NCBI GenBank assembly: GCA_030431255.1
Contig: JAUIJL010000009.1
Span: 124,001 to 188,000 of the forward strand
DNA: 64,000 nucleotides
Reading direction: 5' to 3'
DNA from: Thermoanaerobaculia bacterium
GTDB taxonomy: Bacteria > Acidobacteriota > Thermoanaerobaculia > Multivoradales > J023
Of this stretch, positions 34,867-63,303 are shown in pieces. The position numbers and the translations under genes are program-made. The notes beneath the pieces are model-generated. The model saw only the letters and a program-made list of their open reading frames with translations. It did not search any database and was not told the origin of the DNA. The first letter of the stretch is position 1. Every line of letters begins with the position of its first letter.

Positions 34867-37638
34867 TCAGTGGCAGGCGGGATCGTTGTTGTAGGCGTCC
34901 AAGATGTCCTTCAAGGCATTGGCGGTGCCACGGGCCTTGCCGCGCGGGTTGCTGCCCGGCGGATAGGTGACCAAGAAGGCGTCGGCCGCGTCGACCGTGG
35001 GTTGGATGGAGTCATCCGAGCCCATGGCCAGGTTCAACATGGTGGTCGCCAGATGCTTGGCCAGTCGGGTCGCAGCATCCGGACCGCCGTAGTTGAGCAG
35101 AGCCAGGATTCCGGCCTCGTCGTAGGTGATACCGCCGATGGTCAGCTCGGTAACCGGCCAGACCTCGGTGTGGTTCTTCCAATAACCCGGGGTCCGCGGG
35201 CACCACGGATCGCCGGTATCGACGAATTGATAGCCGAAGTCGACCGTGTCGATCACCTGGTCGTCCAGGAGCGTGACCGTGGCCACATTGAGGGTAGCGA
35301 TGCCGTCCAGGTCGTAAGTGGCTTCGTAGCCGTCCGGTAGGGTCGAGGCATCGATCACCACCGTGTAGGTGCCCGCGGGCACGTCGGCGAAGTAGTAGCC
35401 GCCGTTGGCGTCGGTCACCTGGGTGGCCACCACTTGATTGTTCTCGTCCACCAGAGTGACGGTCACACCGGCCAAACCGACCTCGTCCGCATCTTGGATA
35501 CCGTCGCCGTTGGCGTCGTCCCAGACGTAGTCGCCGATGTCACCGCCGCAATCGAGACCATCGACGATCGCTCCGAGACCTTCCACCAAGGTGATCGAGT
35601 CCTGCACGCTCAGCACCTCGGCCGACGTGTACCAAGCGGCGTAGTCGAGCAGATCTTCTTTGAAGATGCTGTCGCTTTGGATCGCCACACCATAGATCAG
35701 GGCATCGGCCACCGTATTTTTCAAAGTCTCGATCTCGACCATGGTGTTGGCGAAGACCTCACCGTCATACGTGTCGATGGCGGGGTTGTAATTGCCCATC
35801 CAGGCCACTTGACCCCAAGGCATGAAGTTGCCGCCACCGTCATAGAGGGTGAGGGCACGCATCTCGTTGTTGGTGTAGAAGAGGGCGTCCCAACCCTGGG
35901 TGTCGACGTTGGGGAATCCGTCGGTCCACAGCACCACTACCGGCAGGCTGTTCAAATCGCCCAAATTCACCAACATGTCGGTGGTGGCTTGGAGCGCGAA
36001 CGGCAAGGGAGTGGTGGAATCGGGATGGATCATGCCCTGGTCGATCGCTGCCGCAGCGGCGTCCACGGAATCGAGATCCGAGGTCAAGCTCGACAGCACG
36101 TGCACCGAGGAGGTCAGATTGTAATTGCGATCGTTGAACCGGCCGGAATAGGCGATCAGCGCGGAGCGGCTGCCGGGCAGATTCAACTCCAGGAGATCGT
36201 GCATGGCGGCCATGGCGTTGCGCACCGCGTCGAGCTTGGTCTCACCCGGGCCGAACGGCGCCGTCATGGAGCCGGAGGCATCGACCACGTGGATCAAATC
36301 GATCGGAATACCCGGCTCACAAACGACGCCCGGGGGCGGCTCGGGCAACGGGATCTTGTTGGGCTCACAGAGACGGAAATTGTCGTAAGACGCCGTCATG
36401 GTGGTGTTGGCGTTGTAGGAGGCGGTCATCATACCGACCTGCACGGTGTCGCCCATGTCGATATCGATGCTGCCGCCCGCGCCGCCGGCCGGTTTGATCC
36501 AGCTGGTGCCACCGTTGGTCGAGTAGTAGACGGAGAAAGTATCGCCACGACGATCGACCGCCAAACGCAGCGGCAGGCTAAGACCCATGGGCGTGGAGCC
36601 GAGCTCCGCCGCGACACCGTCAGTGCCACGGTAATCGAATTGCAAGGAGCTGGTGCCAGTCAGGGGATTGTTCGGCACGTATTGGATGAACACCCGGGGC
36701 GCCAGGGGATCGTTGGAAGCTCGGACCATCACACCGGTTTTGCGGAAGCCACCGCCGGCATTGACCGGGATGTCGACCAGATCGACTTCCATGCGGAAGC
36801 CGCCGGACCGCTCTTGGAAGAAGAAGCCACCGTTGTCGGTGCCGTGGTAGAGGCTGGTACCGTCGCCGGTAAGGTTGAGCACACCGCCCGAAACCGCGGC
36901 GGCCGCCTGATCCGCGTCGCCGATATTCGCCAGCTGCCACTCCGCGCCCAAAGCGTCGAAGCCGTCACTAGCGCAGGTCAAGGTCGAGTTACCGGCCTTC
37001 GCCAGAAGCGCCGGGCCACCGAGGGACGCTTCGATCGAGGTGCTCATCAATTCCACCGCCGAGATCGGCCCGAGCGAGGACTCGCCGGACGGAGAGTCCA
37101 TCAAGCCCCGCACGCGCGCGGCGGGCTCCATCTCGATCTCAAAACGGGCTACCTCGTCACAGGCGAATCGATGTTGGAGGCGGGAGGTGAACGACGCCGT
37201 CGCACCGGAGGCGCTGACCGGCAGATCGAACGAAAACTGTAGGCGCTGCTGAGCGCCGCTGCGCACCAACATGACGAACGTCTCGGCGTCACCTTGGAAG
37301 GCCTTGGCCGCTTGCGCCTCGCCGTCGGCCAAGTAGGCCACCAACGACGCGGAGGACACGGCCACCGGTTGTCCGGCACGGTCCACCACCGCCACCTCGG
37401 CCAAGCCGGCACATTCCTCGGATTGGGCGAAGCGATACACCGCGTCGCCGCCGTAGGAAATCCTCAAGCCGTCTTGCTCGGCGGCCAGGGCTTTGCCTTC
37501 TTCAGCGAGGACCGCCAGAAGGTCTGCATGGGTATTCGTGAAATCGCCGTCCGCCCAAGCAAAGGGCGCGGCCGACAAAGCGGCGACCACTATCGTCATC
37601 GCCAGGATGATCGGAAGTCTCATTTTTTGCTCTCTCAT
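34867..37638 (-). CDS. Secreted VWA and SdrD B-like domain protein
   Basis: About 923 residues from ATG 37638 (AGGAG 10 bases upstream; ATG 37623 is an alternative). The signal peptide ends near AWA. Residues 30-440 are beta-rich, including a lectin-like segment (FFFQERSGGFRMEVDLVDIPV). A von Willebrand A domain follows at about 445-650 with an intact MIDAS motif (DASGS). An SdrD B/Cna-B domain lies at about 699-805 (IGDYVWDDANGDGIQDADE), and the C-terminal domain begins with CPRTPGYWKNHTEVWP. The PGYWKNH domain is common in large surface proteins of environmental bacteria. It is likely an adhesin or matrix protein. Confidence 0.8.
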   Translation of the reverse strand: MREQKMRLPIILAMTIVVAALSAAPFAWADGDFTNTHADLLAVLAEEGKALAAEQDGLRISYGGDAVYRFAQSEECAGLAEVAVVDRAGQPVAVSSASLVAYLADGEAQAAKAFQGDAETFVMLVRSGAQQRLQFSFDLPVSASGATASFTSRLQHRFACDEVARFEIEMEPAARVRGLMDSPSGESSLGPISAVELMSTSIEASLGGPALLAKAGNSTLTCASDGFDALGAEWQLANIGDADQAAAAVSGGVLNLTGDGTSLYHGTDNGGFFFQERSGGFRMEVDLVDIPVNAGGGFRKTGVMVRASNDPLAPRVFIQYVPNNPLTGTSSLQFDYRGTDGVAAELGSTPMGLSLPLRLAVDRRGDTFSVYYSTNGGTSWIKPAGGAGGSIDIDMGDTVQVGMMTASYNANTTMTASYDNFRLCEPNKIPLPEPPPGVVCEPGIPIDLIHVVDASGSMTAPFGPGETKLDAVRNAMAAMHDLLELNLPGSRSALIAYSGRFNDRNYNLTSSVHVLSSLTSDLDSVDAAAAAIDQGMIHPDSTTPLPFALQATTDMLVNLGDLNSLPVVVLWTDGFPNVDTQGWDALFYTNNEMRALTLYDGGGNFMPWGQVAWMGNYNPAIDTYDGEVFANTMVEIETLKNTVADALIYGVAIQSDSIFKEDLLDYAAWYTSAEVLSVQDSITLVEGLGAIVDGLDCGGDIGDYVWDDANGDGIQDADEVGLAGVTVTLVDENNQVVATQVTDANGGYYFADVPAGTYTVVIDASTLPDGYEATYDLDGIATLNVATVTLLDDQVIDTVDFGYQFVDTGDPWCPRTPGYWKNHTEVWPVTELTIGGITYDEAGILALLNYGGPDAATRLAKHLATTMLNLAMGSDDSIQPTVDAADAFLVTYPPGSNPRGKARGTANALKDILDAYNNDPACH

Positions 37639-37837
37639 CTGCTCAAAACTCCTTCGCCCACAATCGCGGCTAGGCTTTGGCCTCAGCCGGCTGGTCATGA
37701 GCAAGATTGGGGAACTACATCAAATCGAACATTATCGAGGGGGTATACAAAATCTACCAGAAGATTCATTACGTCTTACATTACATTCTGGAATTTCACC
37801 ATTTGAGGTGTCTGCAGCTGCTACCATTGACCAAGAA

Positions 37838-38440
37838 ATGAGTCTTAATTCCTCGACGGCGGCCCAGTTGGTCGCTCGGATTCAAAGCGGTGACGCGCAA
37901 GCCGAGCACGAGCTCGTCGAGCGCTATCGGCGACCCATTGGAGCAATGCTGCGACAACGGCTGAGCCAACATGCCGACGTGGAGGACTTTGTTCAGGACA
38001 CCTTGAGCTTGGCCCTCGGCAAGATCCGCGACGGTCAAGTCCGAGAGCCGGACAAGCTGGGATCGTTTTTGATGTCCATGGCGCGCAATCTGGTGACCGA
38101 GCACTTTCGACGGCTCCAACGTCGCCGTACCGAGGCCGATTCGGATCGAGTGGCCGAGCAAGCCGCTCCGGGCTCCGAGCGTCACGCGGGGTCCGAAGCC
38201 CGCCTGCTGGCCGAGGAGCGCGCCCAGCTCGTCCGACGCATGTTGCTCGAATTGGACACGGGACGAGATCGCGACATTCTCACCCGCTTCTATTTGCAGG
38301 AGGAGGAGAAGGCCTCGATTTGTGACGATCTCGGGCTTTCCTCCCTTCACTTCAATCGCGTGCTGCATCGAGCGCGTCAGCGCTACAAGAAAGCATTCGA
38401 AGACCATCACCAACGCCCTTGGACTGGTCCTTCCGGATAG
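37838..38440 (+). CDS. ECF RNA polymerase sigma factor
   Basis: 200 residues from ATG 37838; the frame is open further upstream (ATG 37697). Region 2 reads DVEDFVQDTLSLALGKIR and LGSFLMSMARNLVTEHFRR, and region 4 reads DILTRFYLQEEEKASICDDLGLSSLHFNRVLHRARQRYKK. It heads a locus with an anti-sigma gene and a TPR-CHAT protease gene and is divergent from the VWA protein gene (199-base gap with no clear promoter). It is the natural candidate to read the conserved motif at 38480, 42664 and 43607 (inference). Confidence 0.88.
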   Translation: MSLNSSTAAQLVARIQSGDAQAEHELVERYRRPIGAMLRQRLSQHADVEDFVQDTLSLALGKIRDGQVREPDKLGSFLMSMARNLVTEHFRRLQRRRTEADSDRVAEQAAPGSERHAGSEARLLAEERAQLVRRMLLELDTGRDRDILTRFYLQEEEKASICDDLGLSSLHFNRVLHRARQRYKKAFEDHHQRPWTGPSG

Positions 38441-38479
38441 CCGCCAACACGAACGACGCGGCTTTAGACCGCAAATACC

Positions 38480-38507
38480 TGAGATGATTTACTTTCTCAT
38501 CCCACTT
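38480..38507 (+). promoter_or_regulatory. Conserved 28-bp motif, copy 1
   Basis: TGAGAT-N10-CTCATCCCACTT, 59 bases upstream of the anti-sigma start codon. Two more copies with the same 10-base spacer precede the genes at 42749 and 43678. Confidence 0.75.
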
Positions 38508-38566
38508 ACCTTCTTGAAGCCGGCGCCGAAAGAGCTTAGACAGCCGCCCTTAGCCGGAAACCTGCC

Positions 38567-39400
38567 ATGACCTACCTAGACACCCCAGATCCCCACGAGA
38601 TCATCGACGCCGAAAACGTCATCGAGCGCTACGTGCTCGGCAAGCTCGACGAGCGGCAGCAAATCGAGCTCGAGGACCACTTCGCGGATTGTGCCCGCTG
38701 CCTCGAAGCTGTGGAGCTGGCCCAAGAGCTGCGGCAAGGCCTCGCCGACGACCGGGCCCGACTGGGCAGCGATTCCGCCGGCACCAGCGAGCCCGCCGGC
38801 GACCTGATCGCCTTTCCCTCTCCCTCGAGCCCCTGGCGATCCCCGGCGGCATGGCTGCCGGCCGCGGCCGTTCTGCTGATCAGCCTGCTACCTTCGGTCT
38901 TCCTTTTCCACAGCCGCAACCGGCTTCAACAACAAGTCGAGCAGCTGCAACAGCCTTGGGTGAGCGTTCCGGACGCGGTGCTCGAGATCCAGCGGCAAGC
39001 GACCACGGAGCCGTCGAGCACGGAGCCGTCGACCACGGCCACTCTCGCGTTCCGTCCCGGCTCATCCTGGATCACGGTGGCCCTGGAGCTCGGACCGGCG
39101 ACCCTGCAGACCGACGCCCGAGCCGGCATGTGGTTGGATCTCAAGCTCTCGGCTCAAGGTGAGCAGATTTGGACGCGAACGGGTGTGAGCCCACCGGACC
39201 AGGGGCGATTGTTGCTCAGCCTGCCCGGCTCCCTGATCGTCGAAGGTGACCCCTTCCAGATCGACGCCTCTTACCGCTTTTCCGAACGGCCCGAAGCTTG
39301 CCGTGCGCCCTGCGAGGGTGATCGCATCGAGCCGATCGGTAGCTTTCGCTTTGCGGTGAGCAAGACCCGACGGGCCGAGACCGAGCCGCCGCCCAAGTGA
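38567..39400 (+). CDS. ZAS-type anti-sigma factor
   Basis: 277 residues. A zinc-binding anti-sigma motif HxxxCxxC is present (H38, C42, C45 in HFADCARC), preceded by a helix (IERYVLGKLDERQQIELE). One membrane helix at about 93-113 (AAWLPAAAVLLISLLPSVFLF) leads to a periplasmic domain with CRAPCEG. The region near 150 has a short repeat (TTEPSSTEPSTTA). It should hold the upstream ECF sigma factor inactive until an envelope signal arrives. The CHAT protease gene overlaps its stop codon (GTGA), so the protease is made in step with it. Confidence 0.85.
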   Translation: MTYLDTPDPHEIIDAENVIERYVLGKLDERQQIELEDHFADCARCLEAVELAQELRQGLADDRARLGSDSAGTSEPAGDLIAFPSPSSPWRSPAAWLPAAAVLLISLLPSVFLFHSRNRLQQQVEQLQQPWVSVPDAVLEIQRQATTEPSSTEPSTTATLAFRPGSSWITVALELGPATLQTDARAGMWLDLKLSAQGEQIWTRTGVSPPDQGRLLLSLPGSLIVEGDPFQIDASYRFSERPEACRAPCEGDRIEPIGSFRFAVSKTRRAETEPPPK

Positions 39401-42400
39401 GTCGCTCCGCGATGCTCGGCGTCGCCCTGCTGCTCGGCGCGCAGGGCCTGAGCGCGGCAGAACCGTCGCGAAAACCCATCCGACTGAGCGATGGTGTGGA
39501 GCTCAGCCGGGTCATCGAGCGACAAAGGCTCGGGCCCGAGCTGACTTTTTCGGAAACCTTCCAATTCCACGTGCCCAAGGGTCGACGCGGTTTGATCCTC
39601 GCCGAGCAGCACACCGCGGATGTGGTGATGACCGCCTGGGGATCGACGATCGTTGGGCCTTGGCGGATCGACTCCCCCTTGGACTTCGACGGCACCGAGG
39701 TTTTGTTGTTGCCGGCCTGGGCTCGCGGACATGTCGAGGTGGAGGTCCAAGCGCGCTTGCCGGGTGGCATCCACGCCAATCTCGAGGGCGAGGGAGAGGA
39801 CGATTCCGCCTCAGCGACGGCTCAGAGCAGTCGGTTCACCCTGAAATTCGAGACCATCCCCCAGACCCATGCCCATCGTGCCCGTCTCGACCTGCTGGGG
39901 AATCTCACCGCCGCGGGCCGGGCCTGGGCCCAAGGCGACGGCGACAGCCGACAGCGCGCCCTCGACTTTTACAGCCGAGCGGCCGAGGTCTCCACGAACA
40001 AGCTCTCCACGACCCAGCCCTCCACGGACATGGACGAGCCGTCCGGACGGCTCATCACCCAAGCGGCCTACGCCCAGGCGGTGCTCTTACGCCTTCTGGG
40101 CCGCCACCAAGACGCCCGCGACCACGCCCAGAAGGTGCTCGACGCTTGGCAACGGCTCGGAGATCGCAAGCGCTCAGCGGATACCTGGAACGAGATCGGC
40201 TTGGTATCCGGCCCGGCGGGCCGCACCGACGAGGCGCGTCGGGCCTTCGAACACGCCATCGAGCTCGCCGAGCAGCTCGACGATCCCTTTCGCCTGGCTT
40301 TCCTCCGGGGCAACCTCTGCCTCGTCGACCTGATGGAAAATCAGTTGCGCCGAGGCGTGAGTTGCTACGCCGAAGCCTTGCCCACGGTGCGAAAGATCGG
40401 CGACCGCGAAACCGAATCCGCCTATTTGCTCAACATGGCCCAAGCCCAACGGCGGCTCGGCGAGCTCGACGGCGCCCAGGAGCTCTATGCCCGTGCTCTT
40501 GAGATCCAATCCGACGCCGGCTTGAAGAAGCTCGAAGCCAAGACTCTCAACAACTTGGCGGGCCTGCATTTGGATCGCGGCGATCTCGAAGCGGCTCTCG
40601 GCGCCTTTCAACGGGCCGCGACCGCCTTCGAGCAGCTCGGCGATCAGCGATGGTTGGGCCGCAGTCTGCACAATTTGGCCACCACCTATTCCATGCTAGG
40701 CGACCTACCGTCCGCCCGCGAATACCTGGAACGGGCTCTTGAAGTCCATCGCGAAGTCGGGAATCTCTCCGGGGAAGCCAGCGCGCTCAAGGTGCTCGGC
40801 CACCTAGAATTCCTGGGGCAAGATCTGGCTTCGGCCCTACGCGCCTATGAGGGCTCGCACCTCCTAGAGGAGCAAACTCACGACGAAGTCGGCAAAGCGA
40901 TGGTTGATGTGTACATCGCCAGGGCCCTGCTCGACACCGGTGAGCCTCGCGAAGCTCTGACAAGGCTGGAAACATCCATCCAAATCTTACGGCGGGCAGG
41001 TTGGAACGCAAGATCGGCAAGGGTGCTGGTGGATCTGGGCCGAGCCTTGGCTCAGTTGGACCGGACGGACGAGGCGCGAGAGACTCTCGACGAAGCCTTG
41101 AGAATCTTCCAGGGGCTCGATGACTCCAGAGGTCGTGGAATCACGTTGTACCAGCTGGCCCAGCTGGCAGAATCTCGCTGGACGGCGTCCATCGACTTGA
41201 AGTCGGCCGCCCGCCATCGCGCCGAGGCGCTCGATTTACTACAACGAGCTTCGCAATCATTCGACGCCGTCACCCTCAACCTTGACGATCCAGATTACCG
41301 CGCGTTCTTCGCCGGCTCCCAACGGCAGGTCCGCGAGCGCTACATCACCCACCTCATCGAGCTCGGGCGACCGACCGAGGCTCTCCAAGTCAGCGAGGCC
41401 GCTCGCGCTTGGGGATTGCGCTCCATTCTCGCCACCTCCGGCACGCCAACCCGTGTGGGTCAAAAGCATGAGGACTCGCTGGTCGGTCTCTCCGCGCCCC
41501 ATTTGAAGCAGATTCGCGCTGAGCTCGACAGCGACACCGTCTTGTTGCACTATCTCGTCGGAGAGCGCTCATCCCATCTCTTCGTGGTGGGACGCACCCT
41601 CTTCCAGACTTTCGAGCTTCCCTCGCGGGAGATCCTGGAGAAAGCGGTCCGAAAGAAACGAATAGGCCTCACCTCCACGAGCTCCGGTGCTACCGATTTG
41701 GCGCCGTTGAGCCGGATGTTGCTGGAACCCGCCTGGAGACTTCTCGATCAACCCGAGATCCGACGCCTGGTGCTGGCCCTAGACGGTCCGCTGCACTACC
41801 TACCTTTTGCCGCCCTTCCTATTCCCGGCACCGACCCGCCACCTGCCGGCAGCGGAAATCCGCAGCTGATCCATCGTTTCGAGCTGGCTCGCATCCCGTC
41901 CATGGCCGTCCTCACTTTGGAGCGTCGGCGCCGATCACAGCGGCCGCCGGCCGAAGCTTTTGCCGCGGTCTTCGCGGATCCCATTTTTGCCGCCCACGAC
42001 CTCCGGCTGCCGAAAGCCACCCGATCACAGATCCTGGTTCCAGAGACGGATCCACTCTTCCGTCTCCGCTGGAGCCATCGCGAGGCCGAGGCTGTTGTAA
42101 AGGCCTCGCACGGAAAGCCGATCCTGGTCGCCCAGGGCGCCGACGCCCACCGCGACCTCCTGCTCGGTGCGCCGCTCGACCGGTACAAGATCCTGCACTT
42201 GGCCACCCACGCCCGGGTCGACGCCACCGTCGCCTCCCGCTCAGGCCTGGAGCTTTCGGCGTTCGATGCCCAGGGCTCGCCACGAAAGGCTTTTGTCTCC
42301 TTACCAGCCCTCAGACGATTGAACCTACAGGCAGACCTCGTGGTTCTCTCCGCCTGTCGAACGGCCCTCGGGCCCGAAATCCGTGGCGAAGGATTGGTGG

Positions 42401-42630
42401 GTTTGGTTCAGACTTTCTTAGAAGCCGGGGCCAGCCGAGTGATCGCCAGCCTGTGGTCGGTGCCCGACCGCTCCACCGCCGAGCTGATGGAGCATTTCTA
42501 CACAGCCTTAGCCCAAGGAGCCGGCCCTTCCGCGGCCTTGCGCCGAGCCCAGCTGCAAATTTTGGCTGAGCATCCCGACCGCCATCCATCCGCATGGGCC
42601 GGTTTCGTGTTGGTCGGAGATTGGCGTTGA
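39397..42630 (+). CDS. TPR-CHAT domain protease
   Basis: 1077 residues from a GTG overlapping the anti-sigma stop. The N-terminus has a short signal-like hydrophobic stretch (SAMLGVALLLGAQGLSA), then a beta domain, about 10 TPR units (residues 140-640) and a C-terminal CHAT caspase-like domain (about 700-1077). The catalytic dyad is intact: His 938 in LHLATHAR and Cys 987 in LSACRTALG. A signal-like N-terminus suggests a periplasmic or membrane-bound protease. TPR-CHAT proteins cut specific partners on signal; here the anti-sigma factor or the downstream 243-residue protein are candidates (inference). Confidence 0.88.
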   Translation: MSRSAMLGVALLLGAQGLSAAEPSRKPIRLSDGVELSRVIERQRLGPELTFSETFQFHVPKGRRGLILAEQHTADVVMTAWGSTIVGPWRIDSPLDFDGTEVLLLPAWARGHVEVEVQARLPGGIHANLEGEGEDDSASATAQSSRFTLKFETIPQTHAHRARLDLLGNLTAAGRAWAQGDGDSRQRALDFYSRAAEVSTNKLSTTQPSTDMDEPSGRLITQAAYAQAVLLRLLGRHQDARDHAQKVLDAWQRLGDRKRSADTWNEIGLVSGPAGRTDEARRAFEHAIELAEQLDDPFRLAFLRGNLCLVDLMENQLRRGVSCYAEALPTVRKIGDRETESAYLLNMAQAQRRLGELDGAQELYARALEIQSDAGLKKLEAKTLNNLAGLHLDRGDLEAALGAFQRAATAFEQLGDQRWLGRSLHNLATTYSMLGDLPSAREYLERALEVHREVGNLSGEASALKVLGHLEFLGQDLASALRAYEGSHLLEEQTHDEVGKAMVDVYIARALLDTGEPREALTRLETSIQILRRAGWNARSARVLVDLGRALAQLDRTDEARETLDEALRIFQGLDDSRGRGITLYQLAQLAESRWTASIDLKSAARHRAEALDLLQRASQSFDAVTLNLDDPDYRAFFAGSQRQVRERYITHLIELGRPTEALQVSEAARAWGLRSILATSGTPTRVGQKHEDSLVGLSAPHLKQIRAELDSDTVLLHYLVGERSSHLFVVGRTLFQTFELPSREILEKAVRKKRIGLTSTSSGATDLAPLSRMLLEPAWRLLDQPEIRRLVLALDGPLHYLPFAALPIPGTDPPPAGSGNPQLIHRFELARIPSMAVLTLERRRRSQRPPAEAFAAVFADPIFAAHDLRLPKATRSQILVPETDPLFRLRWSHREAEAVVKASHGKPILVAQGADAHRDLLLGAPLDRYKILHLATHARVDATVASRSGLELSAFDAQGSPRKAFVSLPALRRLNLQADLVVLSACRTALGPEIRGEGLVGLVQTFLEAGASRVIASLWSVPDRSTAELMEHFYTALAQGAGPSAALRRAQLQILAEHPDRHPSAWAGFVLVGDWR

Positions 42631-42663
42631 TTTCGCGGAGAAAGGGGCCCGAAAGTGAGAGCC

Positions 42664-42691
42664 TGAGATAACCCACGTCCTCATCCCACTA
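42664..42691 (+). promoter_or_regulatory. Conserved 28-bp motif, copy 2
   Basis: TGAGAT-N10-CTCATCCCACTA, 57 bases upstream of the ATG at 42749 and 33 bases after the CHAT gene stop; one base differs from the other copies. Confidence 0.75.
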
Positions 42692-42748
42692 AACGTATGA
42701 ACGCCTTGATGGATGTTTTTCGGGACCACAGAGCTAAAGGAGAAGACC

Positions 42749-43480
42749 ATGCCCCAAGAAGACTTTATCGGCCTCTGGACCGTCAGCCGCACTTCCGGTA
42801 CTCCCTTCGGAATAGGCGCAGAATTTAATATCGAAGAAGCAGACGACACTTTGACGGCGGGTTTGAACGGACAAGCCCTAACCATCACCTACGATGCGGT
42901 CACTAATGTGGTGACCCTCGACGGTATTGAGGGTATGGAAACCCTGAAGCTGGCGGTGTACAAGGATCCGTCGACCGGCTATCGGGCCATTTATGGCGGC
43001 GGAGTCAGCATCACCAAAAACGAGCAGGAACGCTTGGTGACCTGCGCGGCCGAAACTGATCCCATCTCACTGCCTCCCGAAGAATTCCAAGCAGATTCCG
43101 AGGTGACCTCGCAGTGGTTCAAGGTCAGCACCACCAGCGGTACTCAATTCGGAGTCGGCTCAACCGTTGAGCTGAAACCCAATGATCCAAGCAACCCCAA
43201 CGGCCTATTGCTCATCAAAAACGTGCTCGGGCAACCGGCATTGGAGCTCGAAATACAACCCGTCGCCCTCGCTGAAACCACCTTCAAGGGAACCCATCCC
43301 GACGCCGTCGTGGAAGGGGGATCCAAAACTGTGAGCCTTTCCGTGCAATTCTCATTGATTCAACTGGACAAAGACGGCCCGACTCGTATCTTCGGCATAC
43401 AGGTGGTGGACGATCCGGAGAACTCAGGGGTCTGGGGTGGTGATGAGGAAGATCCACCGAGCGGCCTATCCTATTCCTGA
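42749..43480 (+). CDS. Two-repeat beta protein of unknown function
   Basis: 243 residues from ATG 42749, with AAGGAG upstream. Two homologous halves are visible: GLWTVSRTSGTPFGIGAEF near residue 8 and QWFKVSTTSGTQFGVGSTV near residue 119, each followed by a repeat of strand-forming segments. There is no signal peptide or membrane helix. The acidic C-terminus (WGGDEEDPPSGLSYS) is flexible. No family is recognised. It lies directly after the CHAT protease gene under its own copy of the conserved motif, so it may be a partner or target of the protease (inference). Confidence 0.7.
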   Translation: MPQEDFIGLWTVSRTSGTPFGIGAEFNIEEADDTLTAGLNGQALTITYDAVTNVVTLDGIEGMETLKLAVYKDPSTGYRAIYGGGVSITKNEQERLVTCAAETDPISLPPEEFQADSEVTSQWFKVSTTSGTQFGVGSTVELKPNDPSNPNGLLLIKNVLGQPALELEIQPVALAETTFKGTHPDAVVEGGSKTVSLSVQFSLIQLDKDGPTRIFGIQVVDDPENSGVWGGDEEDPPSGLSYS

Positions 43481-43526
43481 GCTTCGGGCCGCGGAATCGG
43501 TCGACACGGTCGAATGCGGTGCAATC

Positions 43527-43553
43527 AAGGGCGGGCCCCAAGGGGTCCGCCTT
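43527..43553 (+). terminator. Probable intrinsic terminator
   Basis: AAGGGCGGGCCCC and GGGGTCCGCCTT pair with one bulge and a 2-base loop, followed by CTTCTT. It closes the transcript of the preceding gene. Confidence 0.6.
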
Positions 43554-43606
43554 CTTCGTGTCGCGGCAGCCCGGCGGACAGGGTTCTCGAAAAAATCTCC
43601 CACAAG

Positions 43607-43634
43607 TGAGATAGCCGTCCACCTCATCCCACTT
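43607..43634 (+). promoter_or_regulatory. Conserved 28-bp motif, copy 3
   Basis: TGAGAT-N10-CTCATCCCACTT, 43 bases upstream of the SCO1 start. The bases just before it (43584-43611: TTCTC, A-tract, TCTC, GTGAGA) match the palindromic site at 29541-29569. Confidence 0.8.
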
Positions 43635-43677
43635 CCTCCCCGACAACCGATTCAACCCATCGGCCCGGAGGAAGAAG

Positions 43678-45189
43678 ATGACCTGCGAACGCGCCCTATC
43701 CTTTCCCCTGCTCGCCCTATTCTGGGGCGGGCTCCTGCTCGGAATCCCCTACGCTGCCCAGGCCTCGGCCCAGGGAAGCGAGAAACCCGCCGACCACGAC
43801 CACGGCAATGGTCACAGCGGAGGCAGCCACGCCGTCCACGGACACGGCGGACACGCAAGCCACGGACATGGCGGCCACGGCAACGCCTCGCCGGAGACGA
43901 CCGGCGGCGATCCGACCGCCCCGGCCCCACTGCGCCTCGTGCGGCTTCCGGACGCGGAGCTGATAGACCAAGAAGGACGACAGGTCAGCCTAACTGAGCT
44001 GGTGGCGGGTCGACGAGCCGCCATCAACTTCATTTTCACCTCCTGCACCACGGTCTGCCCACCCATGGGCGCGCTTTTCGCGCGTTTACAGCGGGATTTG
44101 GAAGCTCGCGGAGACGACGATATCGCCTTCATCTCCATCAGCATCGACCCATCGGTGGATTCGCCGCGGCGTTTGAAGACATGGTCCGAGCGTTTCGACG
44201 GCAGCGACGAATGGCGTCTGCTCACCGGACCGAAGCTGATCGTCGACGATTTGCTCAAGGACCTCGGCGTGTTCACCGCCCTCAAGGAGCAGCACGCTCC
44301 GCTGATCTTGCTCGGCGATCCGAGCACCCAAACCTGGATCCGCGCCCACGGCCTCGCCCCGCCCAAGGACTTGACCGCCGTGCTCGACGGTCTACCCAAC
44401 GCGGAGCTGATTAGCACCGCTGAGTTGGCCCCCAGGAAACTACCTGGCACCTCTGAATTGACTCCCAGGAAACTACCTGGCACCGCCTCCAGGAAACTAC
44501 CTGGCACCTCTGAATCGCCCTCCGCGAAACTACCTGGCACCGTCGACAGCGCCGGCACCGTCGACAGCACCGTCGGCAATGACGCGGCCCGGGAATATTT
44601 CACCGACACGGTGCTTCTGGATCAACACGGCGAGTCGCGACGTTTTTACAGCGACTTGATCGCCGGACGCACCGTGGTCATCAACCCATTCTTCGCCACC
44701 TGCTCCGGCAGCTGCCCGGTGATGCACCGGGCCTTGCGACAGGCCCAATCGACCCTCGCCGATCGGCTGGGACGCGACGTTTTCTTTCTTTCGATCACCG
44801 TCGATCCGGAAGGCGATACCCCCGAGCGGCTGAAGGCCTATGCCGACGCATTCGACGCCGGACCCGGCTGGAGCTTCCTCACCGGCTCTCCCGACGATGT
44901 CGACCGGGTGCTGGCCAAGCTCGGCCAACAGGTTTCTCGAAAGGAGGCCCACCAAGCCATTTTCCTGGTGGGCAATGAGCGAACCGGTCTGTGGCAGAAG
45001 GTCTTTGGCCTCGGGCCGCCCGAGGACTTGCTAGCCGCCGTGAAGGCCGCAGCCGACGATGCACCACAGCCGGCTTCGCCACCTCGTACTTCGGCAACTC
45101 AGGCCGAAGTCTCGCTCACCTCCAACGCCCAGCCTTCCTCAGCATCCACATCCGCCTCGACGACCTCAGCCCAAGGAGATCTACGATGA
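43678..45189 (+). CDS. Two-domain SCO1/SenC copper protein with His-rich N-terminus
   Basis: 503 residues. A signal peptide (residues 1-32) is followed by a His/Gly-rich stretch (about 39-72, with runs such as HGHGGHASHGHGGHG). Then come two SCO1/SenC thioredoxin-fold domains, each with copper ligands intact: C123xxxC127 with H206, and C342xxxC346 with H425. SCO proteins deliver copper to or maintain thiols of copper oxidases. The linker (residues 254-288) has four KLPGT repeats encoded by a 16-bp REP-like motif. The oxidase gene overlaps its stop as ATGA, so it probably metallates the giant oxidase. Tandem SCO domains are unusual. Confidence 0.88.
   Translation: MTCERALSFPLLALFWGGLLLGIPYAAQASAQGSEKPADHDHGNGHSGGSHAVHGHGGHASHGHGGHGNASPETTGGDPTAPAPLRLVRLPDAELIDQEGRQVSLTELVAGRRAAINFIFTSCTTVCPPMGALFARLQRDLEARGDDDIAFISISIDPSVDSPRRLKTWSERFDGSDEWRLLTGPKLIVDDLLKDLGVFTALKEQHAPLILLGDPSTQTWIRAHGLAPPKDLTAVLDGLPNAELISTAELAPRKLPGTSELTPRKLPGTASRKLPGTSESPSAKLPGTVDSAGTVDSTVGNDAAREYFTDTVLLDQHGESRRFYSDLIAGRTVVINPFFATCSGSCPVMHRALRQAQSTLADRLGRDVFFLSITVDPEGDTPERLKAYADAFDAGPGWSFLTGSPDDVDRVLAKLGQQVSRKEAHQAIFLVGNERTGLWQKVFGLGPPEDLLAAVKAAADDAPQPASPPRTSATQAEVSLTSNAQPSSASTSASTTSAQGDLR
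44436..44541 (+). repeat. Four in-frame direct copies of a REP-like motif
   Basis: GAAACTACCTGGCACC is present exactly at 44436, 44469, 44493 and 44526, spaced 33, 24 and 33 bases, all multiples of three. Each encodes KLPGT. It lies in the linker between the two SCO1 domains. Confidence 0.9.
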
Positions 45190-48100
45190 GCCGACATCCG
45201 AGCCTTTCCGAACGCTTCTCCCTTCCTCGATCTTGGTCCTGGTTTGGGTCTCGGGCCCTCGTGCCATGGATCGTGGTGATGCTCGCTCCGACGACGGTCT
45301 TTGCCGACGGGCGATCCTGCCCGCAAATCGAGCCCATCGACGCTTGCCCCAGGATTGTCACCGCCGACGTGGTGGCCCTCGATCAACCCTATTTCTTCAA
45401 CCGTCTCGGAGCCAGCCAGCCCAATGGTCAGATCTTTGCCCTGCGCTCCGATGTGGTGTGCATGCAGGGCACGAGCTGCACGGAGGACGACATGACCCCC
45501 GGCCACGTGATGCTCGATCCGGAAAAACGACCTCGCCCCATGGTCTTGCGGGTGCCCCAGGGGGAATGTCTGCGCATCGACTTCGAGAATTTGCTCACGC
45601 CCCACGAGGTGAGCGGGAGCAGCATCGAATTCAAAGAAGAATACGGCATCGACTCCAAGATTCCGGGCACGGTCACCCGCCAAGCCGGCGTCCATGTGAT
45701 GGGTCTGTCTTTGGTCGCCGCCTGTGACGAAGATCAGAGCGCTCCCGCCATCGATGCCGACGCGTCGTTTGCCGGCGCCAATGAAAGCAGCTTGGTCGGC
45801 CCCGGCGAACGTCGCACGTACATCTACAAGGCGGACCAAGAAGGTGCCTATTTGATGCAAAGCACCGGCGCAATGGCCGGTCTTTTGGACGGCAACGGCC
45901 AGACAGCCCTCGGCATGCACGGCATGGTCAATGTGCAGCCACCGGGCGCGGTCTTCTTCCGCAGCCAGGTGACCCGCGAGGATCTGCTGGCCGCCAACCG
46001 ACGTGACGACTGCCCGTATCCCCTCACCCCCACCGAAGACGGCGACCTTTGTCTGACCCCGCGGGGTCAGCCGTTGATCGACTATTGGGCCGAGGACGAA
46101 AACGGTCGTCCGATTCTCGCCCTGATCGATCCGGATCCCGACTCCGACCCCAACACCCACGACGCCGAGCTGGTGGGCAGCGATTTGACCGCCATCATCG
46201 CCTATCAAGCGAAGGATCGATCCCAACCCGGCGAATTCCCCTTCGACCCCGAGGATCCCTTGTGCTTCCCGGTGCCCGCGGCCACCGGCGATGCGCCCCT
46301 CGACAGCCGCTGCAAACGGCCTTTCCGGGAAATCACCACCATTTACCAGGAGCCTTTGGCCTCCACCGCCCAATCCCTGCCGTGTCTGACCTCCGGTGCC
46401 CAAAACGCCGTGGGCGAGCCCGGCGATTGGCAGACCGCATCAGGCATCACCACCATCACCCTACCCGAGAGCGACGGCTCGAACGGCTCGGTGACCGCCA
46501 GCCAAACCCCTTGCCCCACCTCCTGGAATGTGACGCCGTATTTGACCGACATCTTTTCCGCCAACGGCTCCCTCGACAGCTTCAGCATCAACTTCGGCAT
46601 GGATGCCATCGGCCCGCGGGTGCTCGCCAATCGGGTGCGCATCGGCCCCCAAGGCGATTGTGTGGGCTGCAAATATGAGGAGTTCTTCCTCAGCTCCTGG
46701 CCCAACGGTGACCCCGCCCAGGTCTCGACCCAGCCTCCGGGTCTTTCCGACGGCACGGACGATTCGGACGGCGACGGCTCCACCGACACGGACGGTGAGG
46801 CGATCCGTTTTCCCGACGACCCCTCGAATGTGTACCACTCCTATTTGGGGGATCCGGTCAAATATCGCATCGCCTCCGCCGGCGGCGCCGCGGCCCACGT
46901 CCACCATCAACACGCCCACCAATGGCTGCATACTCCGAACGCCTCCGCCGGCCACTATTTGGACAGCCAAACTTTGACCCCGGGCTCCACCTACACCCTG
47001 GAAATGGTCTACAGCGGCTCGGGCAATCGCAACGAAACCGCCGGCGATTCCATCTTTCACTGCCACTTCTATCCCCACTTTGCCTCAGGCATGTGGGCCC
47101 TGTGGCGGGTGCACGACGTATTTGAGGAGGGCACCCGCATGGACCCGGAGACCGGCCGACCCGCCGACGCCTGGCAATGCGAGCTGGATGGCGAGATCCA
47201 CGATGGCGCCGCCTGTCGTCGAGCGCAGCAGAACGGACAAACCGTGCGCTGGCAGCTTGCCGAGCCCAATCGAGCCCTGCCGGATCCGACCATCGCCGAG
47301 GGCACCCCGATTCCGGCGGTGGTCCCCCTTCCGAGCCTAGCCATGCCGCCCATGCCCGCGCCGGTGGCCGTGTCGCCGGACGGCAAACGCGGGCTCACCC
47401 TGGTCCGCCAATCCCCCGACGGCTGGGGCGTGTTGGGCAGTGATCACGAGATCACCGCCGAGCTGGCGGAGAAAATCGGCAATCCGGGTTTTCCCTTTTT
47501 CATTCCGGGTTTGGCCGGCCAGCGGGCCGTTCGGCCGCCCCTGGACGTGCCGCGCATCGAGCACGAAGGTGAGGAGCTGGCCCTCGATGGCGGCCTGCCC
47601 CGCCACCGCATCGGCGCCTCGCCGGCGCCCGCGGAGCTCACCGATTCCACCGCAGCCGACGGTTGCACCCCCGCCGCCGCCGGCAACCCCTTCCGGGAAT
47701 GCCATACCCGACACGATTTCTCGAAGATTCTGCTCGACGTCAACGCCGAGCAGCTCGACGCCGACGGCGAGCCGGCCGAGCGGTTGGCCATGTGGTGGCA
47801 CGGCGATCTCTTCCCCGGTGGACGGATCCCCAGCTGCGGCACCGACGGCGTTTGCGATTCGAAAACATCGTTCCGTCTGAACGGCAGCCGACCCGCCGCC
47901 GGCGCCCCCTACGCCGACCCCTGTGCCCTCGAGGACCGTTGGAACGGCGAAACCCGTCACTACAAGGCCGCGGCCATCCAAACCGACGTGGTGTTCACCA
48001 AGGAAGGTTGGCACTTCCCCCAACAGCGCATGCTGAGCCTGTGGGAGGACGTGCAACCCACCCTGGATGGGCAGCGCACCCCGGAGCCCCTCTTTTTCCG

Positions 48101-51100
48101 CGCCGCTTCCGGCGAGTGCATAGACTTCTGGCACGCCAACTTGGTGCCGAGCGAATACAGCCTCGACGACTACCAGGTGCGGACCCCCACGGACATCATC
48201 GGCCAGCACATTCACCTGGTGAAATTCGACGTCACCTCGTCCGACGGTGCCGCCAACGGCTTCAACTACGAAGACGCCACCTTCAGCCCCGACGAGGTGC
48301 GCGAGCGCATCAACGCGATCAACGCCGGCGGTGGCCTGAGAGTCCGTCCGGGCGAGGTCTGCCCGGACGGCTCGGCTCCCGGCCCCCTGGGTCGCTGCTT
48401 GCTCGAAGCCCGGGAGCTGCCGTTCTTCGGCGCCGGTCCCGGAGGTCGTTGGATCGGCGCTATGGCCACGGTGCAACGTTGGATGGCCGATCCCCTGGAA
48501 GACGTCTACGGCAACGACCGCACCCTGCGCACGGTCTTCACCCACGACCACATGTCGCCGTCGACCCACCAACAAACCGGTCTCTACGCCGGCCTGCTGG
48601 TGGAGCCGGCGTGCTCCCAATGGGTCGATTCGTGGACTGGCGAGGTCATGGGCGGCAGCTTCGACCCCTTGGGTGAAGATTGCCGGAGCGCCTACGCCGC
48701 GCGACCGTCCGACGGTGGTCCCACCAGCTGGCGGGCGAATATCCTCTATCGCGAAGACGACGAAGCTTCACCTTCCTACGAGACCGGCAAACCCACGCCG
48801 CGCCTGACCGGTGTGCGCGAATTCGCCCTCGAATTCCAGGACATCGCCTTGACCTACCCGCGGCAGATTCAGCATCCGCCGAGCACCTTGGCCCTCGAGC
48901 AAATCTGCCCGAGCTGTCCTGGACCGTCCCAAGGGGCCGGCATCGGCCCGAGCTCGGTGGCCAATAAATTCAACTATGGGGTCGACTTCCCGCGCGTGGT
49001 CAACAGCCCGGGCATCACCGCCCCCACGGGTCCGTGGCCCCAAGCGGTGACCTTCGGCGCCATGCTCGGCATCTACTCCATCAACTACCGCAGCGAGCCC
49101 CTGGCTCCCCGGGTCACCGGCGCCGACGGAGCCCCGCCACCGGCCACCGGCGAGCGTTTGCCGGCCCAGGACTACGCCCAGGTCTATCGCTCCATCGAAC
49201 GGTTGAACCCGGCCCTCAACAAACAGCCCGATTGGTATCCGCCGCTCACCGGCGGTGTCCAAGGCACGGATCCCATCACGCCGCTTTTGGAGGCATACGC
49301 CGGCGACCCGATCCAGATCCGCACCTTGACCGGTGCCCACTTCCTCAACCATCAGCTCAGCCTGCGCGGCCTGCCGTGGCTCTTCGAGCCTTCCCTGGCT
49401 AATTCCGGCTATCGTGCCGCCCAGTCGACCTCGTTGTCCGAGCATTTCGAGCTCAATATTCGATTGCCTCGCGAGATTGGAGGCCCACAGGTGGACTACC
49501 TCTACCAAACGGACCTCTCCGACCAAGGCCAAGCCAAAGGCGCCTGGGGCCTGCTGAGGTCCTACGCCCAGCGTCAAGATTTCCTCGAGCCCCTACCGAA
49601 CAACGTCCCGTCCCAGAAACTACCTGGCACCGCCAAGAAACTACCTGGCACCGCCAGAACCGAGGTGCCAGCAGAGGTGCCAGGTAGTTTCAGAACTGCT
49701 GCCGAGATGCCGGCTGCCGAGGTACCAGGTAGTTTCCGAGCCGACGGCAGCTGGGTCTGTAGCCCGGATTCGTTGGCGGGAAGCAACGGCTTCCAAACCC
49801 GACGTTACCGGGTGCTCGCCCTGAGCGCCGCCGACTTCGCGCCGGACGTGCCCCTGCCCTATCGCAGCCCCATGGACTTGGTCTTACAAACCACCGACGA
49901 AGACGGCAACACGACCACCTCCCCGTGGCCTACGGCGATCGAAAGCCCCGAAGCGGTGATCTACGCCCTGGCCGAGGATCTCGTGGCCACGGACGAAGGC
50001 TGGCGTTGGGCGGATCGGCGCCTAGCGGAGCCTTTGGTGTTGCGGGCCGCCGCCGGCGATTGCCTGGAGGTGACCCTGGAGAATCACCTCGACCCCACGG
50101 CCACACCCTTCGTGACCGACAATCCCACCCGCATGGCCCTGGAAGCGCCCTTGACCGGTAGCGCGGATTGCACCGACGCCGTCTATTCGCAACGCCTGGC
50201 CCAAGTCCGAGACGGATCCGACCCCAGCGCTCTCGACGGATACGCCGAGCTGTGCGCGGGCAGCTTCGCCGCTTCCACCCGGGTGGGGCTCGCGCCCCAA
50301 TTGGTGACTTACGATCCCTTGCACGGCGCCGGCTACGACGCGGGTTTCAACCCCGTGCAAACCGTGCCGTCCAAATCTTCCAAAGACCTGTCGTCGAAGA
50401 ACCCGGACGCACCGGCGCCTTCGCGCACCTATTTCTGGTACGCCGGCCATGTGCAAACCGACGACGACGGTCGACACGACTACACCCCCGTGGAATTCGG
50501 CGCCGCCAATCTCCTGCCCGCCGATCCGCTCTTCCAAGCCACCAAGGGTCTCTTCGGTGCCTTGATCATCGAGCCCCTGGGCGCTCGCTGGGTGGAAGAC
50601 GCCCGCACTCGCCTCCAAGCCGAGATCTACCCGGCGAAAGGAGAGCCTTTCCGGGAAGGAGTGCTCTTCCTACAAGACGACCTGGAGCTCTATTTCCGCG
50701 ACCAAGATGGTGATTATCAAGCGCTGAACGTTCAGAACGTGGCCAATTTCTCGGGTCAGCTGAGCGCCGTGGGTTATGGCACGGAAACGCCCCTCATGCG
50801 CATGACACCGCCCGCATCCCACGATGTCGCGGTCAATGGCGATCAGCAGAATCCAGAGGATCCACAGCCCTACGGCTCCTTCCAAATTTCCGACTTCGTC
50901 GACCAAAGCTGCTGGCTGTCGAGCGCTCAGGCGGGCAGGGATCCGGCGACCACGATGCTCGTGGCCCACGCCGGCACGCCCTATCGAATCCGTCTGGTCC
51001 ACACCCTCGGCAACTTCACGCCCCAGACTTTCGAGCTGCACGGCCACGGCTGGCAAGAGGAGCCGTACACGCCCCTCGACGGCCACGCCAACGTCGGCGG

Positions 51101-51773
51101 ATTTGCCGGACCGGGTCCTGTGCCCCAAACCCTCGGTGACAACCCTTACTCCCAATGGATGGGCTCCCAGGGCGGCATCGGTGCCGGCCAACACTTCGAC
51201 GTGGTGCTGGCGCCGGTCGGCGAAGGCACATCCCAAGCTCGACACAACGGAGCTGGAGGGCAACTGAAAAAAACCGGCGATTACCTCTACCGCACCTGGC
51301 AGAGCAACGGCTTCATCGGCGGCACTTGGGGCCTTTTCCGTGTCGGGCCCGAGATTCCCGCCGGGGAAAAGCGCGACATCGTCGCCCTCTTGCGGGTCGT
51401 ACAGACCGAGTCCGGCGACACCTCCGTGATCGGCAGCAATTCCTCGATTCTCGGCTCTGTCCCCGGCGAGGCGCGATTCTCCCGACGGCTGTGGATCCAC
51501 GCCGAGCAAGCCGATGATCCGCAACACGGTCCTTGCGCCGGTGAGCCCATCGGCATCGTCGAGCCTTCCGACCCCGTGGGCCCGACACAGACCTGGACCT
51601 GGACCGGCGACGTGGGCCGTGCCGATCGCCTATGTGTGAGGTCCGAGGCCGGCGGTCAGGATCGTTCGGTCATCGCCGAGGATCTGCCCTGTCCGGATGC
51701 TGCCGAGCAAGGCAACCCGCCATCAGAAACCGCTAGCACCAAGCCCATCCGTCGTATGGGAGGGCAAGGCTGA
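45186..51773 (+). CDS. Giant multicopper oxidase (MofA/McoA-like)
   Basis: 2195 residues, about four times a normal three-domain oxidase, from ATG 45186 with AAGGAG upstream. The signal peptide ends near VFADG. A full type-1/type-3 copper site lies early: HVHHQHAH (571-578) and HCHFYPHFASGM (625-636, Met as axial ligand). Further His clusters are IGQHIHLVKFD (H1008, H1010), THDHMSPSTHQQ (1120-1128) and ELHGHGW (H1952, H1954); the last domain has no HCH motif. Very long oxidases with several cupredoxin units include the Mn(II) oxidases MofA and McoA. It is co-operonic with SCO1 and cytochrome genes. A REP-like linker is at residues 1478-1518. Mn(II) oxidation is inference. Confidence 0.85.
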   Translation: MSRHPSLSERFSLPRSWSWFGSRALVPWIVVMLAPTTVFADGRSCPQIEPIDACPRIVTADVVALDQPYFFNRLGASQPNGQIFALRSDVVCMQGTSCTEDDMTPGHVMLDPEKRPRPMVLRVPQGECLRIDFENLLTPHEVSGSSIEFKEEYGIDSKIPGTVTRQAGVHVMGLSLVAACDEDQSAPAIDADASFAGANESSLVGPGERRTYIYKADQEGAYLMQSTGAMAGLLDGNGQTALGMHGMVNVQPPGAVFFRSQVTREDLLAANRRDDCPYPLTPTEDGDLCLTPRGQPLIDYWAEDENGRPILALIDPDPDSDPNTHDAELVGSDLTAIIAYQAKDRSQPGEFPFDPEDPLCFPVPAATGDAPLDSRCKRPFREITTIYQEPLASTAQSLPCLTSGAQNAVGEPGDWQTASGITTITLPESDGSNGSVTASQTPCPTSWNVTPYLTDIFSANGSLDSFSINFGMDAIGPRVLANRVRIGPQGDCVGCKYEEFFLSSWPNGDPAQVSTQPPGLSDGTDDSDGDGSTDTDGEAIRFPDDPSNVYHSYLGDPVKYRIASAGGAAAHVHHQHAHQWLHTPNASAGHYLDSQTLTPGSTYTLEMVYSGSGNRNETAGDSIFHCHFYPHFASGMWALWRVHDVFEEGTRMDPETGRPADAWQCELDGEIHDGAACRRAQQNGQTVRWQLAEPNRALPDPTIAEGTPIPAVVPLPSLAMPPMPAPVAVSPDGKRGLTLVRQSPDGWGVLGSDHEITAELAEKIGNPGFPFFIPGLAGQRAVRPPLDVPRIEHEGEELALDGGLPRHRIGASPAPAELTDSTAADGCTPAAAGNPFRECHTRHDFSKILLDVNAEQLDADGEPAERLAMWWHGDLFPGGRIPSCGTDGVCDSKTSFRLNGSRPAAGAPYADPCALEDRWNGETRHYKAAAIQTDVVFTKEGWHFPQQRMLSLWEDVQPTLDGQRTPEPLFFRAASGECIDFWHANLVPSEYSLDDYQVRTPTDIIGQHIHLVKFDVTSSDGAANGFNYEDATFSPDEVRERINAINAGGGLRVRPGEVCPDGSAPGPLGRCLLEARELPFFGAGPGGRWIGAMATVQRWMADPLEDVYGNDRTLRTVFTHDHMSPSTHQQTGLYAGLLVEPACSQWVDSWTGEVMGGSFDPLGEDCRSAYAARPSDGGPTSWRANILYREDDEASPSYETGKPTPRLTGVREFALEFQDIALTYPRQIQHPPSTLALEQICPSCPGPSQGAGIGPSSVANKFNYGVDFPRVVNSPGITAPTGPWPQAVTFGAMLGIYSINYRSEPLAPRVTGADGAPPPATGERLPAQDYAQVYRSIERLNPALNKQPDWYPPLTGGVQGTDPITPLLEAYAGDPIQIRTLTGAHFLNHQLSLRGLPWLFEPSLANSGYRAAQSTSLSEHFELNIRLPREIGGPQVDYLYQTDLSDQGQAKGAWGLLRSYAQRQDFLEPLPNNVPSQKLPGTAKKLPGTARTEVPAEVPGSFRTAAEMPAAEVPGSFRADGSWVCSPDSLAGSNGFQTRRYRVLALSAADFAPDVPLPYRSPMDLVLQTTDEDGNTTTSPWPTAIESPEAVIYALAEDLVATDEGWRWADRRLAEPLVLRAAAGDCLEVTLENHLDPTATPFVTDNPTRMALEAPLTGSADCTDAVYSQRLAQVRDGSDPSALDGYAELCAGSFAASTRVGLAPQLVTYDPLHGAGYDAGFNPVQTVPSKSSKDLSSKNPDAPAPSRTYFWYAGHVQTDDDGRHDYTPVEFGAANLLPADPLFQATKGLFGALIIEPLGARWVEDARTRLQAEIYPAKGEPFREGVLFLQDDLELYFRDQDGDYQALNVQNVANFSGQLSAVGYGTETPLMRMTPPASHDVAVNGDQQNPEDPQPYGSFQISDFVDQSCWLSSAQAGRDPATTMLVAHAGTPYRIRLVHTLGNFTPQTFELHGHGWQEEPYTPLDGHANVGGFAGPGPVPQTLGDNPYSQWMGSQGGIGAGQHFDVVLAPVGEGTSQARHNGAGGQLKKTGDYLYRTWQSNGFIGGTWGLFRVGPEIPAGEKRDIVALLRVVQTESGDTSVIGSNSSILGSVPGEARFSRRLWIHAEQADDPQHGPCAGEPIGIVEPSDPVGPTQTWTWTGDVGRADRLCVRSEAGGQDRSVIAEDLPCPDAAEQGNPPSETASTKPIRRMGGQG
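49616..49736. repeat. Inverted REP-like cluster inside the oxidase gene
   Basis: GAAACTACCTGGCACC occurs at 49616 and 49637 and its reverse complement at 49676 (exact) and 49721 (GGTACC variant), with partial copies between. The reading frame continues through all of them, giving KLPGT then EVPGSF units. The arms can form long hairpins. Confidence 0.9.
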
Positions 51774-63004: not shown

Positions 63005-63034
63005 ATCAAGCTCTCCTTTATTGATTTGTGCGCA

Positions 63035-63303
63035 GCGCACAGATGTGCGCAGCGCTCTCAATAGAGCTTGGACGTAAAAACTCCCTCGAATTCTGCTCAG
63101 ATTCAAAAATTGCTAAAAATATGGCCCCACCGAGGTGCTAACGCGAAAAAGGTGCCACTTAGTTCTGGTGGCGGTTCTGGTGGCGGCGCACAGGTGTGCG
63201 AGCGCTCTAATAGAGCTTGGACGGAATAATGACCTTGAATTCTGCTCGAATCCGAGTATTTTTAAAAAAACTCACCGTGAAAAAGGTGCCACGTAGTTTC
63301 TGG
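63035..63303. repeat. Duplicated 118-134-bp repeat units
   Basis: Unit A (63035-63168) and unit B (63186-63303) share GCGCACAG-TGTGCG palindromes, AGCGCTCT-AATAGAGCTTGGACG, GAATTCTGCTC, and the end GAAAAAGGTGCCAC(T/G)TAGTT. The interval from the transposase to the cytochrome gene (310 bases) consists almost wholly of them. Confidence 0.85.

Follow-up and report, generated by a model that had tools for sequence, protein, structure and literature searches.

Gene content of the locus

The window, by which we mean the whole 64,000-nt stretch of Thermoanaerobaculia DNA analysed here, carries an ECF sigma factor gene followed by the genes of a membrane anti-sigma factor, a caspase-like TPR-CHAT protease and a small protein, and then by an operon that begins with SCO1 and an MnxG-like multicopper oxidase (Table 1). 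The gene names anti-sigma and SCO1 of the original prediction hold, the former with matches to Pfam zf-HC2 (2.3e-4, just below the gathering score) and to an NCBIfam anti-sigma model (1.7e-6, below the cut-off), and its two-repeat protein is seen in the two similar halves of the small protein. The label of a copper operon needs refining, as the gene that follows SCO1 encodes a multicopper oxidase of the manganese-oxidase type (962 bits against a curated NF041487 cut-off of 3100). The genes of the beta-propeller-like protein and the cytochrome c probably belong to the same operon as this oxidase, and a sulfatase gene lies behind them (54835-56460; Pfam Sulfatase 1.9e-30). A GC-rich inverted repeat between the small-protein and SCO1 genes is possibly the end of the small-protein transcript.

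Judged by eye, the N-terminus of the TPR-CHAT protein resembles a signal peptide, and a simple pattern found the His and Cys motifs of its CHAT domain in 22 of 26 further CHAT fragments besides that of the window. Gene groups of ECF, anti-sigma and TPR-CHAT recur in this order of Acidobacteriota, and in one genome from another family of the order (G020) the gene order from the ECF to the cytochrome c is kept, with the first five genes matched by BLAST and the last three by eye in the translations.

The SCO1 and MnxG-like genes also contain a 15-base repeat, GAAACTACCTGGCAC, with four in-frame copies in the former (44436-44540) and four in the latter (49616-49736; both strands, in frame), one of the eight having 1 mismatch (chance 0.00). 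One further window copy with 1 mismatch lies at 63286-63300, and the 20 exact copies in the genome are confined to contigs C4, C8 and C27. The repeat appears to be a small interspersed element that has entered coding sequence. An open reading frame at 62009-63106 on the minus strand seems IS200-type transposase-like by eye and has no Pfam match.

Table 1. Genes and sequence features of the locus, numbered from the first base of the window
Feature	Position	Strand	Details
ECF sigma factor, proposed to read the motif	37838-38440	+	Sigma70_r2 5.7e-10; sigma70-ECF 2.4e-15; clade tracks motif
Motif copy 1	38480-38507	+	exact; after ECF gene, before anti-sigma/CHAT operon
Blocks of copy 1	38480-38485; 38496-38506	+	proposed -35 TGAGAT; spacer 10; proposed -10 CTCATCCCACT
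Membrane anti-sigma factor, zf-HC2 type	38567-39400	+	HxxxCxxC-type zinc finger; one hydrophobic segment from residue 96
TPR-CHAT caspase-like protease	39397-42630	+	CHAT 1.2e-60; His (LHLATHA) and Cys (LSACRT) motifs
Motif copy 2	42664-42691	+	blocks 42664-42669 and 42680-42690; between CHAT and small-protein genes
Small protein, two similar halves	42749-43480	+	C-terminal tail DPENSGVWGG
GC-rich inverted repeat	43531-43550	+	read by eye; absent from the terminator scan's list
Motif copy 3	43607-43634	+	exact; blocks 43607-43612 and 43623-43633; before SCO1
Protein with two SCO1/SenC domains	43678-45189	+	Pfam SCO1-SenC, two stretches
MnxG-like multicopper oxidase	45186-51773	+	NF041487 6.2e-289; PDB 9bxa MnxG 1.7e-75
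Beta-propeller-like protein	51773-53761	+	weak Pfam matches (PQQ_2 0.002)
Cytochrome c protein	53758-54822	+	Cytochrom_C 6.1e-5, above gathering score

A rigidly spaced motif upstream of three genes

All three window copies of the motif TGAGAT-N10-CTCATCCCACT(T/A) lie on the plus strand, the second with a single mismatch (A instead of T at the last base), and end 59, 57 and 43 nt upstream of the start codons at 38567, 42749 and 43678. Their 10-nt spacers are mutually unrelated in sequence. With up to three mismatches, the window holds no matches beyond these three copies (expectation 0.03; 0 of 100 shuffles gave three), and the right block CTCRTCCCACT searched alone hit the same three places only (0.07 expected). 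The original prediction had claimed three copies of equal spacing, situated 43 to 59 nt in front of the genes for the anti-sigma factor, the small protein and SCO1, and both points are borne out, as is its remark that the motif does not match a GGAAC-type ECF promoter, given a left block that reads TGNGAY. No motif site was detected by matrix scan in the window's own region upstream of the ECF gene, and a sigma-70 scan of 37600-45300 returned two sites against 1.2 expected, both intragenic.

Occurrence in the same genome

The genome-wide search that had been proposed as a check gave 8 matches at up to three mismatches, against 1 for the backwards pattern; a 27-base version of the motif at up to two mismatches gave 7 (control, 1). 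Five of these seven are clearly upstream of a gene, namely the three in the window, one before an avidin-like gene on contig C7 and one on C5 before a gene whose product looks secreted. The similarity to avidin is weak (Pfam E 0.0022, under the gathering score), with no PDB chain at 0.01; the product of the C5 gene belongs to no Pfam family and gives the impression of being beta-helix-like. The match on C29 lies within an open frame and is not followed by a start, and that on C25 is ambiguous because a start follows it, yet it lies inside a 945-nt opposite-strand open frame. At this C25 site (257390-257418; loci L112 and L170) the motif is matched on both strands within 1 mismatch, making it a near palindrome. 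Further three-mismatch matches are on C45, C48 and C51. Since a looser pattern with one mismatch found 8 matches in this genome against 4 controls, we trust only strong sites; isolated weak matrix scores likewise mean little, because the reversed matrix reached 12.1 in locus L156 and, at one position of the 64-kb window, 15.3.

Distribution and orientation across the order

Exact matches to TGNGAY-N10-CTCRTCNCACT number 24 in 8 of 72 genomes of the same order (control, 1). For 19 of them a script found a start with Shine-Dalgarno sequence in the same direction within 130 nt (distances of 18 to 124 nt), as compared to 869 of 6000 random positions in the same loci (14.5%) and to 4 of the 24 sites when the opposite direction was examined. 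Another three, window copy 1 and sites on G006 C410 and G003 C24, are upstream of a gene by eye with starts that the script did not accept, which brings the sites upstream of and oriented with a gene to 22 of 24; the remaining two (L119, L128) are within long open frames on the other strand. Thus, in the genomes holding the ECF, the copies are not scattered inside genes at random, the outcome that would have spoken against a regulatory role in the original prediction. Several sites have a start codon only 18 to 50 nt downstream, and we infer that a complete additional promoter would not fit into so short a distance. The spacing is similarly rigid: in loci selected for an ECF, and with the right block slightly relaxed, this block stands 10 nt from TGNGAY in 16 cases, 4 to 9 or 11 to 17 nt from it in none and 18 nt from it in one.

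Genes behind the motif in these relatives encode proteins with Pfam matches to PI-PLC-C1, Vps62, an alkyl-sulfatase-like metallo-beta-lactamase fold and GMC oxidoreductase as well as SdiA-regulated/phytase-like proteins and a DNA-binding kinase, and several have no Pfam family. A plain search of the relatives with up to three mismatches was uninformative, as it matched 43 of 59 genomes and its reversed control matched many as well. A variant promoter derived from paralogue loci, TGNGAT-N12-GGCGACAGTA, is unsupported (9 matches in 72 genomes versus 11 for the control). Beyond the order, the motif was matched 8 times in 7 of 373 genomes (control, 1), and the four of these matches that were looked at are in long opposite-strand open frames with no start behind.

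Link to the ECF sigma factor

Relatives of the window's ECF at E<=1e-20 are found in 17 of 59 genomes, and all eight genomes with exact motif matches carry such relatives; the ECF search covered these 59 genomes, and the 13 others of the 72 have no exact motif match. A genus-mate (G001) has no ECF match and a one-mismatch motif copy inside a long open frame, which fits the model, yet the regulon is not conserved within the genus. Among named relatives of the ECF, 17 of 21 loci, from metagenome-assembled genomes, are labelled Acidobacteria, Acidobacteriota or a genus or class thereof, three of them Thermoanaerobaculia or Thermoanaerobaculum.

A matrix built from 16 training sites, none from a sigma/anti-sigma gap, was scanned over 41 ECF loci (40 plus the window, one of them without sequence after the ECF). 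In the stretch of 220 nt that follows the ECF match, 8 of 41 loci score at least 14 (27.5 in the window, 16.4 to 29.3 in the others), and the reversed matrix reaches at most 4.7 in this gap over 40 loci. Upstream of the ECF, over 900 nt, 7 of the 40 loci reach scores of at least 14 (reversed maximum 8.5). A site next to the sigma/anti-sigma genes is present in a minority of all ECF relatives and in the majority of the window's clade. In a tree of the 41 ECFs, a motif, defined as a score of at least 14 in either stretch plus a site 196 nt after the ECF on G031 C572, marks 11 of 15 members of that clade versus 2 of the 26 others, with 6 label changes versus 11.3 when shuffled (0 of 500 shuffles as low). 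Support is 88/78 for the clade and 97/98 for an inner clade of ten. Four of the 15 members lack a site of at least 14. One of these ends with its contig, and the closest relative (G020, with an ECF 62% identical and the same gene order) is also among the four, its best gap score being 11.4, which is no strong site.

The window's own genome has three further ECF relatives at E<=1e-20. On its contig C42 (153223-155383; L084, L168), two tandem ECF/anti-sigma pairs stand with CHAT genes nearby, and the anti-sigma gap of one pair has a motif scoring 16.7. Across seven more distant ECF loci, three (L149, L155, L160) contain TGNGATA close to the ECF, at scores of only 10.6 to 14.2, and their right blocks differ from that of the motif while retaining CAC(T/C)T; the L160 site is on the strand opposite to the ECF. 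The other four have no site (the reversed matrix gives 12.1 in one). At most, this hints at left and right blocks that change separately.

Small proteins encoded behind CHAT genes

At the thresholds used, searches of Pfam, NCBIfam and PADLOC placed the window's small protein in no family. Its tail, generalised as DPxxx(G/A)V(W/M/F)G, occurs in 12 loci, and in nine of them (window, L087, L089, L090, L092, L094, L097, L098, L101) the tail-bearing gene lies 3' of a CHAT gene or CHAT-like C-terminus. A motif site scoring at least 16 separates the two genes in 8 of the 9, all except L087, with some of these intergenic sites being members of the matrix training set. As far as Pfam shows for three members scanned, the small proteins with this tail form an undescribed family. 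At one locus (L116; G002 C18), a DPDNVGVMGG tail appears in two reading frames within 3 kb, which may be the small-protein gene in tandem copies. AlphaFold2 modelled the window protein with a mean pLDDT of 35.6 and a relative of 151 aa with one of 52.7, and we claim no fold for either; Foldseek at E<=0.001, a profile search of the PDB at E<0.2 and a search of the contigs of named genomes gave no match or relative of the small protein.

A candidate promoter and its rivals

With a probability of about 0.8, judging from sequence comparison, the motif is the core promoter recognised by the window's ECF, with TGNGAY as the -35 element, a 10-nt spacer and CTCRTCCCACT as the -10 region. The sigma-promoter reading of the original prediction is supported by comparison: the sites have one orientation and a rigid spacing, they occupy the sigma/anti-sigma gap, and they cluster on one ECF clade. 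This co-distribution, together with the geometry of the sites, suggests that this sigma factor physically uses them.

The arms of the motif (TGNGAY-N13-RTCNCA) form a near inverted repeat, so the same bases could be read as a dyad operator for some dimeric regulator of the same genes, a reading that agrees with the matching of the ambiguous positions of the two arms in the matrix and with the two-strand match on C25. We consider such an operator unlikely, as the arms are unequal in length and conservation (11 bases on the right against 5 to 6 on the left), 22 of 24 sites face their gene in one direction, start codons that can be only 18 nt away do not allow for a separate downstream promoter, and the distribution follows one ECF clade; the evidence gathered on the motif and the ECF contains no recurrent regulator gene. 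Less probable still is that a different sigma factor encoded in this genome uses the motif as its promoter and that the neighbouring ECF is linked to the motif by chance or inheritance. The three further ECF relatives in the genome, one with a gap site, would lend themselves to this, but the site is found in the gap of this very ECF and of its clade, and the paralogues outside the clade are mostly without one. Chance or a mobile or duplicated repeat, which three copies within 5.2 kb might bring to mind, can practically be dismissed given the expectation of 0.03, the unrelated spacers and flanks and the unlinked copies upstream of genes in eight genomes.

Proposed circuit

As a promoter for one dedicated, stress-type sigma factor, the motif very probably ties the CHAT locus, the metal-oxidase operon and scattered genes of a soil-type bacterium into one programme, as far as can be told from genome comparison. 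The anti-sigma factor would keep the ECF at the membrane until a signal leads the CHAT protease, through its TPR part, to cleave the anti-sigma and thereby release the sigma factor. We base this putative protease step on the gene neighbourhood, the His and Cys motifs and the parallels to ECF54 (PMC8999054) and CASP (PMC10028731) in the sections of these papers cited here. The freed ECF would then transcribe its own anti-sigma/TPR-CHAT operon in a feedback loop as well as the small-protein gene, the SCO1/MnxG-like oxidase operon and scattered unlinked genes, which in the window's own genome would be the avidin-like and secreted-protein genes.

More tentatively, and with the odds somewhat against the full combination, these elements might form a CRISPR-free circuit. 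In it, an exported TPR-CHAT protein would sense a signal from the envelope or outside and cleave the membrane anti-sigma, setting free a dedicated ECF that amplifies the circuit and switches on a dispersed set of proteins with binding, lipid-acting and redox roles. The small proteins ending in DPxxxGV(W/M)G, whose genes stand directly behind CHAT with a copy of the putative promoter to themselves, could be partners or substrates of the protease, with the tail as recognition site. The portions of the open-access PMC literature that were searched contain no description of this promoter or of a CHAT/zinc-finger anti-sigma/ECF circuit, and the control targets of ECF/anti-sigma/TPR-CHAT groups are undescribed there. 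A defined promoter would make the regulon readable from sequence, allow a direct test of caspase-like proteases steering transcription outside CRISPR and predict the switch-on of the MnxG-like oxidase operon.

Comparison with known systems

In the cited sections of PMC10028731, the CASP/Craspase system of type III-E CRISPR comprises the TPR-CHAT protein Csx29, Csx30 and CASP-sigma, and thus shares with the present locus a TPR-CHAT protease, an ECF sigma factor and a sigma inhibitor encoded together. Both have sigma sites inside the locus, candidate ones in the present case, plus matches elsewhere in the genome (PMC10028731), and these internal sites suggest feedback in each. The inhibitor is a zinc-finger membrane anti-sigma here and Csx30 in CASP/Craspase, and unlike in the parts of that system described there, the CHAT protein here is apparently exported and there are several unlinked candidate targets. 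A PADLOC search of ten window proteins, with a library that may omit Cas7-11 and Csx30, returned just a TPR model and no CRISPR protein.

For the ECF54 group, the cited part of PMC8999054 reports CHAT proteins in a conserved gene context and proposes proteolytic control; by gene context, the window and its relatives likewise have a CHAT protein. ECF54 is listed there without an anti-sigma, whereas here an anti-sigma gene follows the ECF (PMC8999054). Classical pairs of ECFs and zinc-finger anti-sigma factors of the RpoE/RseA type, freed by regulated proteolysis according to the cited sections of PMC10028731, share with this locus the order of an ECF and a one-span membrane anti-sigma as well as a feedback promoter. 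In place of their DegS-type protease, an operon-encoded caspase-like CHAT protein would act here, and the promoter is not of the GGAAC type.

The gene cuoB encodes a multicopper oxidase. It is among the copper genes controlled by CorE, an ECF of Myxococcus (PMC3107203), and the present ECF would likewise control an operon with SCO1 and a multicopper oxidase. CorE has a Cys-rich domain and, in the cited sections of PMC3107203, no linked anti-sigma was found, whereas the ECF described here is linked to both an anti-sigma factor and a CHAT protease.
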